Shown in pieces: positions 3,721-43,356 of a stretch of 64,000 nt of DNA. This stretch comes from Streptomyces sp. 378 (GTDB lineage: Bacteria > Actinomycetota > Actinomycetes > Streptomycetales > Streptomycetaceae), in the NCBI RefSeq assembly GCF_030124145.1, contig NZ_JASKMS010000020.1:1-64000 (forward strand). Direction: 5' to 3'. The translations under genes and the position numbers were made by a program. Numbering within the stretch: position 1 is the stretch's first letter; each line of letters begins with the position of its first letter. The notes under the pieces were generated by a model. The model searched no databases. It saw nothing but the letters and a program-made list of their open reading frames with translations, and had not been told where the DNA came from.

Positions 3721-5688
3721 TCAGGAGCGTTTGCGGGCCAGGTCCTCGTAGAAGTTCAGCAGGTCGAGGTTGTCGATGGAGCCCGGGTTGACCGCCTTCT
3801 CCAGCGGGGTGCCCTGGAGGAGGCGCTTGACGGGGACCTCGATGCGCTTGCCGGTGAGGGTGTGCGGGATTCCGGGCACTTCGATGATCTCGTCGGGGAC
3901 ATGGCGCGGTGACAGTTGCTCGCGGATCGTCTGCTTGATGCGGGTCAGCAGGGACTCGTCGAGGACGGCTCCGGGGGCCAGGTGGACGAAGAGAGGCATC
4001 CAGTAGCCGCCGTCGGGCTGCTCGATGCCGATGACCAGGGACTCCCCGATCTCGGGGAGACGTTCCACGGCTTCGTAGATGTCGGCGGAGCCCATGCGGA
4101 CGCCCTGACGGTTGAGCGTGGAGTCGGAGCGGCCGTGGATGACGACGGATCCCCGGGAGGTGACGGTGATCCAGTCGCCGTGCCGCCAGACGCCGGGGTA
4201 GGTGTCGAAGTAGCTGTCGTGGTAGCGGCTGCCGTCGGGGTCGTTCCAGAAGTGGATGGGCATCGATGGCATGGGGTTGGTGACGACCAGTTCCCCGACC
4301 TCGTCGACGAGGGGGTTGCCGCTCGGGTCCCAGGACTGCAGGTCGGTGCCGAGGCACGGGGCCTGGAGCTCGCCGACGTGGACCGGGAGGGTCGGCACGG
4401 CACCGGCGAAGCAGGAGCACACGTCGGTGCCGCCGCTGACGGAAGCGAGCCACAGGTCGTCGCGGACCTCGTCGTGGAGCCAGCGGAAGCCGTCGGGCGG
4501 CAGGGGCGAGCCGGTGGTGGCGACGCACTGGACGGCGGAGAGGTCGAAGTCGCGCGACGGGTGCACACCCGCCTTGCGGCAAGCCATGACGTAAGCCGCC
4601 GAGGTGCCGTAGAGGGTGGCTTTGGTGCGTTCGGCGATCCGCCACTGGGCGCCGGTGTCGGGGTAGCCCGGGCTGCCGTCGTAGAGGACGATCGTGGTGC
4701 CGGTGAGCAGGCCGGAGACGAGGAAGTTCCACATCATCCAGCCGGTCGAGGTGTACCAGAAGAACCGGTCTTCCGGGCCGAGGTCGCAGTGCAGGCCGAG
4801 TTGCTTGAGGTGCTCGACCAGGATGCCGCCCTGGGACTGGACGATGGCCTTGGGCAGGCCGGTCGTGCCGGAGGAGTAGAGCACCCACAGGGGGTGGTCG
4901 AAGGGCACCTGCTCGAAGACGGGGTCCGTGTCGGCCGAGGTGAGGGCCGACCAGTCCAAGGCGCCCTCGGGTGCCTCGGTGCCGAGGAGCGGGATGTGGA
5001 TCACGGCGCGCAGGGTGGGCAGTTCGCGGCGAAGCTCGGCGACGACCTCGCGTCGGTCGTGTTCCTTGCCGCCGTAGCGGTAGCCGTCGACGGTGAAGAG
5101 GACGACGGGTTCGACCTGCCGGAAGCGGTCCAGGACGCTGCGGGCGCCGAAGTCGGGCGCGCAGGAGGTCCAGACTCCGCCGACGGCGGCTGTGGCGAGG
5201 AGGGCGACCACGGCCTGTGGGACGTTCGGGAGGTAGCCGCTGACGCGGTCGCCGGGACGTACGCCGAGCGCGCGCAGTTCGGCGGTCAGGGAGCCGACCT
5301 GGCGGCGCAGCTCGGCCCAGGTGACGGGGCGCGGTTCGTGCGTCTCGTCCACGTGCAGGAGGGCCGGTTCGTCCGCGCGGGTGGCGGCCGCTCGCAGGGC
5401 GTGTTCGGCGTAGTTGAGGGTCGCTTCGGGGAACCACTGGGCGCCCGGCATCGAGCGGTCGCCGAGCACGCGCGCGTAGGGGGTCGAGAAGCGGACGTCG
5501 AACCACTCCGTGACGGCTTTCCAGAAGGTGTCGAGGTCGTCGACGGACCAGCGGTGCAGGGCCGCGTAGCCGCCCTCGGCGGGGGCGCCGTGGCGTTCGG
5601 CGGCCCAGGCCTGGAACCTGGTGATTCGTGCCCGGGCGATGCGCTCGGGGTCTGGCTGCCAGAGCGGCTGGGGACTCTCGGTCGACAT
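3721..5688 (-). CDS. aacS: acetoacetate-CoA ligase (acetoacetyl-CoA synthetase)
   Basis: This 655-aa member of the ANL adenylating superfamily makes acetoacetyl-CoA from acetoacetate, CoA and ATP. The AMP-binding loop YSSGTTGLPKAIV and the C-terminal TGKRIEVPVKR segment are present. Lys614 in that segment is the catalytic lysine which, in the S. lividans homologue, is switched off by acetylation. The N-terminal WFPEATLNYAEH region is typical of the acetoacetate rather than the acetate branch. The start at 5688 follows GGGAGCC; a much longer open frame upstream is fortuitous. The gene is divergent from the GH31 gene across a 211-base promoter region. Its function in butyrate or ketone-body metabolism is inferred from the family. 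Confidence 0.93.
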   Translation of the reverse strand: MSTESPQPLWQPDPERIARARITRFQAWAAERHGAPAEGGYAALHRWSVDDLDTFWKAVTEWFDVRFSTPYARVLGDRSMPGAQWFPEATLNYAEHALRAAATRADEPALLHVDETHEPRPVTWAELRRQVGSLTAELRALGVRPGDRVSGYLPNVPQAVVALLATAAVGGVWTSCAPDFGARSVLDRFRQVEPVVLFTVDGYRYGGKEHDRREVVAELRRELPTLRAVIHIPLLGTEAPEGALDWSALTSADTDPVFEQVPFDHPLWVLYSSGTTGLPKAIVQSQGGILVEHLKQLGLHCDLGPEDRFFWYTSTGWMMWNFLVSGLLTGTTIVLYDGSPGYPDTGAQWRIAERTKATLYGTSAAYVMACRKAGVHPSRDFDLSAVQCVATTGSPLPPDGFRWLHDEVRDDLWLASVSGGTDVCSCFAGAVPTLPVHVGELQAPCLGTDLQSWDPSGNPLVDEVGELVVTNPMPSMPIHFWNDPDGSRYHDSYFDTYPGVWRHGDWITVTSRGSVVIHGRSDSTLNRQGVRMGSADIYEAVERLPEIGESLVIGIEQPDGGYWMPLFVHLAPGAVLDESLLTRIKQTIREQLSPRHVPDEIIEVPGIPHTLTGKRIEVPVKRLLQGTPLEKAVNPGSIDNLDLLNFYEDLARKRS

Positions 5689-41067: not shown

Positions 41068-41363
41068 CGGCCGGACCGCCTCTCCACTACGCGTCTGCTC
41101 CGGGTGTACGCCTGCGAGGGCGCAGCCGTACGGGTGAATCGCCAGGGTACTGGCTCGCGCGGCACATGACCCGATGTGCCCGAGGTAAAGATCAGTACAG
41201 ACCCGGACAAGCGCAACAGTCCGGTCCCACCGAGCGCGGGGCCACTCCGCCGCATGGGAGAAATCGTCCAAATTTCACCCAGTTGCACCTTTTATCGTAT
41301 GGATACATCCTGTGAGCCTGGAAGTACTCATGGTGACTGTCCCCGCGAACCAGGAGATCCCCA

Positions 41364-41558
41364 ATGATCCTCTCCATCTCAGGCGTGGTCCTGCTCGGCA
41401 TCGTCGTCTTCATCTTCTTCCGCAAGGACGGACTGAAGGCCTCGCATGCCGTGGTCGCCATGCTGTTCGGCTTCTACCTGGCGAGCACGGCCATCGCCCC
41501 GAGCATCAAGGCGGGCGGCGAGAGCCTCGCGAGCCTCCTGGGCGGAATCAAGTTCTGA
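41364..41558 (+). CDS. 64-aa membrane protein, partner of the FtsK-like gene
   Basis: The protein has two predicted membrane helices (about 2-19 and 28-48) joined by a short charged turn (FRKDGLKAS). The ATG at 41364 has AGGAG 8 bases before it. It is 52 bases upstream of the FtsK-like gene and probably in the same transcript. The promoter region to the left is unusually AT-rich for this genome (41268-41310). I do not know a function; an anchor or regulator of the ATPase is the simplest idea. Confidence 0.8.
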   Translation: MILSISGVVLLGIVVFIFFRKDGLKASHAVVAMLFGFYLASTAIAPSIKAGGESLASLLGGIKF

Positions 41559-41610
41559 CGGCCCCGTTCCCCGTACGCATCCCGCCCGTACGCACCCACT
41601 GGAGGCAGTA

Positions 41611-43356
41611 GTGGCCCGGCGCCCCCTCCCCCGCATTCTGAGCAACGGCAGCGCGCAGCTCGCCCGGAGCCGGGAGCTGGCCCGGACGGCCGCCGACAGT
41701 GCCACCGACGTCCTCCACCCGCTGATCACGATCACGCGGGGGCTGCGCCGGCTGGCAGCGGCCGGGCGGCGCAGATGGACCGAGACCCCCAAGGAGCGAC
41801 GGGGGGCGCTGCTGTTCCTGGTGACCTCCGTGGTCCTGGTCGTGGCGCTGGTGCCGTACGGGCCGCTGCTCGCCGTCATCACCCTGATGGCGGCCGCGGC
41901 CTGGCAGGGCCGGGACCGGACCGCGGCGGCGTCCGACGGGCCCGACGAGTCGCAGAGCCAGCGGCTGAAGTCGCTGTACGAGGCTCTCGTACCGCACTTC
42001 TCCGCCGCCGAGGACCCTGAGCCGCTGTACTCCCACGGCGGCGCGTGGGACAAGGCCTTCCCCACCTACGCGTTCGACGGCGGCGGCCGGATCTCGCAGC
42101 TGGTGGTGCGCTACCCGGCGTACTTCACCGACGGCGAGGCCGAGGCCCGCGCCCGCATCGAGCACCTCCTCGCGGCCAAGTCGGGCCGGGGCCGCGAATA
42201 CCACTTCACGTGGGACGAGGAGGGCAACCAGTTGACGCTCGGCGTCCTCCTGCCGCTGCCCGTCGACATCACCGCCCAGCGTTTCGTCACCACCCCCGGC
42301 GAGACGGTCCTGGGCTTCACCGACCCCACCCAGGTCCAGCGCACCCTGCCCCTCACCCACGGGGAACGCCGCCGCGACGTGCCGCCGGTCGTCTGGCGCA
42401 CGGGCCCGCGCTCCACCGAGCCACACCTGCTGGCTCTCGGCCAGCCGGGCAGCGGCACCTCCACCCTGCTGCGGTCCATCGCCCTGCAGGCCCTGCAGCA
42501 CGGCGACGTGGTGATCATCGACGGCGGCGGCACCGGCGAGTACGCCTGCCTCACCGGCCGGGACGGCGTCCTGGCCGTCGAGGCCGGGCTCGCCGGGGTC
42601 ACGGCCAGCCTGGAATGGGCGGCGACCGAGACGGAGCGCCGCCTCATCGCCGCCAACCGCGCCCACCAGGCGGGCCACCCGCCGCCCGACGACACCAAGC
42701 GCCCGCTGTGGATCCTCCTCGACCGCCCCACGGCGTTCACCCATCTGGCCGCCGCGGACGGCCGCAAGGATCCGCAGTCGCTCCTCCAGGTCCCCCTCCG
42801 GCACGGCCGCCCGGCGAACGTGACGGTGGTCGTGGCCGACCAGCTGGACAGCATGGACGCCCTCAGCGAGCCGGTGCGCCGGCACACCCGCGCCCGCGTG
42901 GTCCTGGGCCCGGCGACGGCGGACCAGCTCGAGTCGGTGCTGGGCGCGCCCCCGCACACCACCCCCATCGACCAGCTCCCGCCCGGCCGCGGCTACGCCC
43001 GCCTGGGCACGGGCCCGGTCCACCGCCTCCAGGTCCCCGCCACCCCGAACCCCTACGACGACGCGACGCCCGACGCCCTGTGCCAGGCGGTCCTGGACCT
43101 CCTCCCGCCCCGGACGACTCCGGCGGACGGGGAGACGATCCCGGAGCAGGACCAGTCGGCGGGCGAACCGGAGCCGGTACCGACGGCAGGGCAACCGGAG
43201 CCGGGGGCGACGGCCGGCGAACCGGAGCCGGTGCCGGTGGCCGTCGGGCCCGTGGCGCCGGAAGCGAACCCCGGCCCGGTGCCGGTCCTCGGTCAGGACC
43301 CCCGGCCGCATCCGGCGCCGGTTCTGACGAAACCCTCGGAAGCGGATCGCTCGTAG
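41611..43356 (+). CDS. FtsK/SpoIIIE-like membrane ATPase with degenerate nucleotide site
   Basis: The 581-aa protein has one or two membrane helices (about 65-98) and a motor-like domain (about 245-500), then a low-complexity tail of repeated GEPEPVP units. Fold landmarks of FtsK are recognisable, including the late LPPGRGYARLG segment. The Walker A position, however, reads G277-QPGSGT-S284 with Thr283 in place of Lys, and the Walker B strand WILLDR has Arg372 where the catalytic Glu should be. ATP hydrolysis is therefore unlikely, and a structural or regulatory role similar to pseudo-ATPase domains of EccC is plausible. The GTG start follows GGAGG at 41601-41605. Confidence 0.8.
   Translation: MARRPLPRILSNGSAQLARSRELARTAADSATDVLHPLITITRGLRRLAAAGRRRWTETPKERRGALLFLVTSVVLVVALVPYGPLLAVITLMAAAAWQGRDRTAAASDGPDESQSQRLKSLYEALVPHFSAAEDPEPLYSHGGAWDKAFPTYAFDGGGRISQLVVRYPAYFTDGEAEARARIEHLLAAKSGRGREYHFTWDEEGNQLTLGVLLPLPVDITAQRFVTTPGETVLGFTDPTQVQRTLPLTHGERRRDVPPVVWRTGPRSTEPHLLALGQPGSGTSTLLRSIALQALQHGDVVIIDGGGTGEYACLTGRDGVLAVEAGLAGVTASLEWAATETERRLIAANRAHQAGHPPPDDTKRPLWILLDRPTAFTHLAAADGRKDPQSLLQVPLRHGRPANVTVVVADQLDSMDALSEPVRRHTRARVVLGPATADQLESVLGAPPHTTPIDQLPPGRGYARLGTGPVHRLQVPATPNPYDDATPDALCQAVLDLLPPRTTPADGETIPEQDQSAGEPEPVPTAGQPEPGATAGEPEPVPVAVGPVAPEANPGPVPVLGQDPRPHPAPVLTKPSEADRS

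Follow-up and report, generated by a model that had tools for sequence, protein, structure and literature searches.

The window, a stretch of 64,000 nucleotides from Streptomyces sp. 378, carries on its forward strand a gene for a small membrane protein followed directly by a gene for an FtsK-type protein. The pair is smeA-sffA (SCO1415-1416), a Streptomyces sporulation operon and a locus that is already known. The identity follows from the gene order, the protein lengths and the BldC operator, all of which agree with the S. coelicolor pair. The features of the locus are as follows.

41260..41299, + strand: probable BldC operator upstream of smeA, made up of four direct repeats with a phase of about 10 bp
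41364..41558, + strand: smeA, 64-aa two-helix membrane protein with two hydrophobic stretches, ATG start
41611..43356, + strand: sffA, 581-aa putative FtsK-type pseudo-ATPase, GTG start, stop codon ending at 43356
41656..41910, + strand: residues 16-100 of SffA, a long N-terminal helix and two further helices (61-80, 84-100), likely a membrane hairpin (hydropathy, predicted structure)
41917..42246, + strand: residues 103-212, conserved alpha/beta domain preceding the motor (predicted structure, alignment)
42247..43125, + strand: residues 213-505, FtsK-type RecA-like motor domain (profile match, predicted structure)
42457..42459, + strand: Thr283, replacing the Walker A Lys (alignment)
42721..42726, + strand: Walker B Asp371 (167 of 167 orthologues) and Arg372, the latter replacing Glu (alignment)
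42895..42897, + strand: Arg429, which in the alignment falls on the Arg of the FtsK IPTRIAF segment and is kept in 163 of 167 orthologues
43126..43353, + strand: residues 506-581, Pro/Glu-rich tail, variable among species and of low confidence (pLDDT blocks 46-64)

The GTG start of sffA lies five bases behind a GGAGG motif and 52 bases after the smeA stop. A mechanically called reading frame from ATG 41446 overlaps smeA and was rejected as an unlikely start. An earlier reading of this DNA, made from the sequence only, had given the coordinates, the 64-aa two-helix partner, Thr283 and Arg372 correctly, and all of these stand when the gene is read from the GTG. It was also right about two catalytic losses in a conserved domain, but did not foresee that the genes are the known SmeA-SffA septal pair.

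Of 171 sffA loci, 166 have SmeA close by, and the other five are truncated where the contig or locus stops. An ankyrin-repeat protein lies on one side of the locus; a GntR-aminotransferase, a phosphodiesterase, a transporter, RbpA and FxsA lie on the other. SmeA has 64 aa both here and in S. coelicolor, and SffA has 581 aa here versus 596 aa there (PMC10090380, as far as the accessible text goes). The candidate BldC repeats differ by 3, 2, 1 and 0 mismatches from the four S. coelicolor smeA-sffA repeats in the accessible part of PMC5859096. Taken in phase this amounts to 6 mismatches in 36 positions, whereas none of 500 shuffles of the region had fewer than 14. By this sequence agreement the published BldC operator has probably been kept upstream of smeA.

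The founding paper on the S. coelicolor pair (SCO1415-SCO1416) is Ausmees 2007, in which SffA reportedly co-localises with FtsK at septa. What follows is taken from excerpts of later papers. SmeA is required in S. coelicolor for the arrival of SffA at sporulation septa, and expression is sporulation-specific. In mutants lacking the pair, septation, segregation of chromosomes and maturation of spores are disturbed, and a review gives a fivefold increase in anucleate spores in the mutant. SCO1416 is described as weakly FtsK-like, adjoining the small membrane protein SCO1415 and targeted to the sporulation septum, and the range of the pair is given as streptomycetes, Kitasatospora and Catenulispora (PMC4255298). 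Two papers, PMC5859096 among them, name SffA a DNA translocase. The excerpted literature describes the role of SffA at the septum as unknown or unclear. Further papers drawn on for this comparison are PMC7985256, PMC2782261, PMC6428758, PMC9436818 and PMC3878966.

No second SffA was found in the genome of this strain. Five relatives of SmeA are present at E below 0.001, and three of them have no FtsK-type gene in the stretch of about 8.5 kb that contains them. One SmeA paralogue (L242, G000:C2, positions 4651-4863; 52% identity) is preceded by a gene bearing a Tat-like signal, and a comparable arrangement, SCO1196-SCO1195, appears in the excerpted literature. Two apparent integrated elements (L244, G000:C11:63500-72000, and L245, G000:C28:5000-13500) encode Tra-type FtsK proteins. 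Each also encodes, about 1.2 kb downstream of the Tra-type gene, a small protein with weak likeness to SmeA (identity 34-36%, E 3e-5 and 2e-4).

Architecture and fold of SffA

The predicted structure of the window's SffA has a mean pLDDT of 86 and a pTM of 0.72. The nearest solved structure is TcpA (6o1w; Z 25.1, rmsd 6.9 over 319 residues), followed by FtsK (6t8b; Z 23.9, rmsd 4.9 over 326 residues) and EccC (4nh0; Z 22.4, rmsd 3.3 over 253 residues, 22% identity). When the PDB was compared by sequence profile, ATPase domain 1 of EccC came out best (4nh0, E 7.4e-21). Structural alignment gives 15-16% identity to FtsK motors. The profile and the predicted structure place a single motor domain in SffA, with no chain of the EccC/EssC type, and a Pfam scan with E up to 1 gave no match to a C-terminal gamma winged-helix domain.

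The model bears out the FtsK-type fold proposed from the sequence. The description of the domain as well kept needs a qualifier: the modelled fold is clearly FtsK-type, but Pfam FtsK_SpoIIIE scores 12.2 bits on SffA, below the cut-off of 24. The Pfam score was rejected as a measure of decay, as L093 and L097, with Lys and Glu intact, fall below the cut-off and the degenerate L108 and L109 lie above it. The model of an orthologue with both residues intact was of low confidence (pLDDT 66.5, 10 sequences) and was left out of the comparison.

Catalytic positions across orthologues and their history

ATPases of this superfamily as a rule need both the Walker A Lys and the Walker B Glu to hydrolyse ATP. 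The P-loop of SffA reads GQPGSGTST, with Thr283 at the Lys position, and its Walker B segment reads LWILLDRP, with Arg372 at the Glu position. The FtsK of the same genome served as a control and has GATGSGKSS and DELADL intact. An Ala, which we take to be engineered, stands at the Lys position in the aligned E. coli FtsK chain 2ius, so the FtsK fold tolerates loss of the Lys.

A match to SffA was found at 186 loci, of which 171 remained after removal of identical cores and 167 after removal of four short sequences (L049, L050, L052, L114). Residue-level counts cover these 167 aligned orthologues, which represent part of the genomes with an SffA match. The readable positions of the short loci are Thr (L049, L114) and Gly (L052) at 283, and Arg (L050, L052) and His (L114) at 372. 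Left out before the 186 were repeats from the class search (L172-L198), split second pieces or repeats (L055-L062, L170, L171) and weak or partial matches (L002, L003, L053, L054, L167-L169, L199-L201).

Position 283 is occupied by Thr in 129 of the 167 orthologues, Lys in 22, Ser in 4, Ala, Ile and Val in 3 each, Gly in 2 and Arg in 1. At position 372 there are 123 Arg, 20 His, 16 Glu, 4 Gly, 2 Asp, 1 Gln and 1 Asn. Lys is thus absent from 145 proteins and Glu from 151. The clade of Streptomyces, Kitasatospora and relatives lacks Lys in 145 of 145 sequences and Glu in the same 145, and Lys is kept in all 22 others. The 22 proteins with Lys belong to Catenulispora, Actinospica, Actinocrinis and their close relatives, to a single genome of another family (G309), and to Yinghuangia and Embleya, two genera inside the Streptomycetaceae that were recognised by identical sequences in named records. 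Six of them are without Glu and have Gly, Asp or Asn at 372, none of which is basic. In the 144 proteins whose residue 283 is uncharged, position 372 carries a basic residue in 143 (123 Arg, 20 His) and Gln in the last one.

Neither Lys nor Glu occurs in any of the 105 aligned Streptomyces sequences (one from this genome, 93 from the same genus and 11 from named records). A strain-specific mutation or a sequencing error, in favour of which no point was found, is for practical purposes ruled out by the lack of Lys in all 105. Orthologues with intact Lys and Glu, which the sequence-only reading had named as evidence against itself, do occur, but outside Streptomyces, in Yinghuangia, Embleya and Catenulispora. 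Because they are confined to other genera, the change is clade-wide and old rather than strain-specific, and the alignment at 283 and 372 finds the loss of Lys fixed in the clade.

Trees were built from 95 and from 49 of the 167 orthologues. With the motif columns taken out, the loss of Lys requires a single change both on the 95-sequence tree and on the more careful 49-sequence tree. On the latter the Lys-loss branch has a bootstrap of 100 and an SH-aLRT of 96, and it recurs in 100% of 200 bootstrap trees. The presence of Glu requires three changes on the 95-sequence tree and two on the 49-sequence tree. The basic state at 372 needs one change on the 49-sequence tree, which indicates a single event that was retained and not many independent ones. 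These sequences show one loss of the Walker A Lys, in the common ancestor of Streptomyces, Kitasatospora and their clade, and a Walker B Glu that became His or Arg. The protein of G212 (locus L109) has Arg283 and Gly372 and is the first branch among the non-Lys proteins; the branch is long and the genus is represented by one genome. This lineage is a possible intermediate.

Other motor residues have been retained. Gly277, Gly282, Arg288 and Asp371 are each present in 145 of 145 proteins of the non-Lys clade and Arg429 in 141, and all 167 orthologues have Ser or Thr at residue 284. The dN/dS of the motor (pairwise Nei-Gojobori values, rough given the high G+C) is 0.08-0.25 in 13 non-Lys pairs and 0-0.26 in five Lys-bearing pairs, and as a rule does not exceed that of the N-terminal segment. 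Such low values show purifying selection and not decay. The catalytic loss is fixed in the clade while the motor stays under purifying selection.

Of the genomes searched, 195 of 199 in the genus carry SffA, as do 118 of 121 drawn from the family (16 of 17 genera) and 194 of 197 drawn from the order; these samples overlap. A profile of Lys-bearing orthologues, run on a class sample of 296 genomes, found full-length SffA in 27 genomes (E 3.4e-134 or better), all of the window's genus and none outside it. It also matched 28 other genomes at E up to 1e-15, in the motor part only; 27 of these lie outside the genus, and G286 belongs to it. Among plasmids, SffA was matched once, on a Streptomyces replicon of 2.8 Mb. 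No SffA match was found in G121, G286, G381, G423 and G206, which are 98-100% complete and may be secondary losses of sffA; some species evidently manage without the gene. In G272, of the Kitasatospora group (L114), sffA is in five frame-broken pieces and smeA reads through, so SffA can disappear while SmeA remains. The SffA of a record named Saccharothrix sp. ST-888 (L209) groups inside the Kitasatospora-type clade on the tree, and the organism name may be wrong.

Candidate roles of SffA at the sporulation septum

We regard it as probable that SffA is a membrane-anchored, non-hydrolysing FtsK-type ring that is recruited by SmeA and acts at closing septa, not as a DNA pump. SmeA would bring SffA to the sporulation septa. 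Judged by its residues, the SffA of the Streptomyces-Kitasatospora clade would not hydrolyse ATP, and without hydrolysis there would be no pumping of DNA. It would form an FtsK-like ring or collar, anchored in the membrane and structural or regulatory in function, that may organise the septum as it closes, or partners, for example FtsK and DNA. Its pocket perhaps still holds a nucleotide or another anion without turnover, and loss of the Lys alone does not exclude nucleotide binding. The sequence argues against SffA as a DNA translocase in Streptomyces; it may instead be a scaffold or gate, as the sequence-only reading proposed. If SffA cannot hydrolyse ATP, the segregation defect must stem from scaffolding or from an action on FtsK or the septum; this defect and the rise in anucleate spores could also fit a weak motor.

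Several other readings bear on the same evidence. SffA could be a dead subunit or regulator of FtsK that inserts into or caps the septal FtsK ring and tunes DNA export during closure. The intact FtsK of the genome, the septal co-localisation that the 2007 paper is said to describe and the modelled FtsK-type fold are all in keeping with this, but the low identity to FtsK motors and the missing gamma match make mixed hexamers doubtful, and we consider such a regulator unlikely. Alternatively, SffA may still be an ATPase by an unusual route, in which a basic residue, Arg372 or some other, does the work of the P-loop Lys and a different acid activates the water. The basic residue at 372 in nearly every protein with an uncharged P-loop residue would suit this route, as would the Walker B Asp and two P-loop glycines, none of which varies in the non-Lys clade, together with the segregation phenotype in the excerpted literature. 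However, Lys and Glu are jointly gone from the whole clade, and residue 283 drifts among Thr, Ser, Ala, Ile, Val and Gly, which is unlike a catalytic residue; continued hydrolysis thus seems quite unlikely. That the motor is a decaying relic, with only the N-terminal half and SmeA of importance, is very improbable. Genomes in which sffA is lost or broken, such as G272 with its intact smeA, would fit a relic, but the low dN/dS of the motor and its residues invariant across 145 proteins speak against it.

The non-hydrolysing ring could be taken one step further. The loss of charge in the P-loop (Lys to an uncharged residue) is accompanied by a basic neighbour at Walker B (Glu to His or Arg), with the P-loop glycines, Ser/Thr284 and Asp371 unchanged. 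The pocket might then have been repurposed: SffA would be a SmeA-recruited sensor ring at the septum, binding but not hydrolysing a nucleotide or other anion, and the Streptomyces-Kitasatospora lineage would have invented it from an active translocase; we hold this to be speculative and rather unlikely. A translocase of the ancestral type may still be working in Embleya, Yinghuangia and Catenulispora. These living relatives with intact motifs allow motor and pseudo-motor to be compared across the one change that separates them.

Comparison with known systems

The gene pair, the operon, the BldC operator, the protein lengths and the phylogenetic range are the same here as for SmeA-SffA of S. 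coelicolor. The excerpted literature on that pair calls SffA weakly FtsK-like or a DNA translocase, and the loss of catalytic residues is not mentioned in those excerpts. A fixed and old catalytic degeneration of SffA was not found in the literature searched, and the founding 2007 paper may already mention it. New relative to what was found in print is a stand-alone FtsK-family protein that appears to have turned pseudo-ATPase once, with intact relatives still alive.

SffA shares with the FtsK/SpoIIIE translocases a RecA-like motor fold, an N-terminal membrane segment and the published septal site. It differs from them in that the SffA of the Streptomyces-Kitasatospora clade is without the Walker A Lys and the Walker B Glu and has no gamma match. 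The Tra-type FtsK proteins on contigs C11 and C28 resemble SffA in having an FtsK-type domain and a weakly SmeA-like small protein nearby, but their GATLSGKS and DEVAEL motifs are intact.

Degenerate FtsK-type domains inside EccC/EssC, of the type VII secretion machine in the membrane, are a known theme in the excerpted literature. The likening of SffA to the inactive domains of EccC, made from the sequence alone, is apt in that EccC domain 1 is the best profile match. It does not carry over to the EccC5 DUF domain, which according to the accessible text of PMC11154593 has lost the P-loop altogether, its glycines being gone and the segment helical, whereas SffA keeps the P-loop frame. EccC/EssC proteins carry several FtsK-type ATPase domains in a chain, and SffA carries one.
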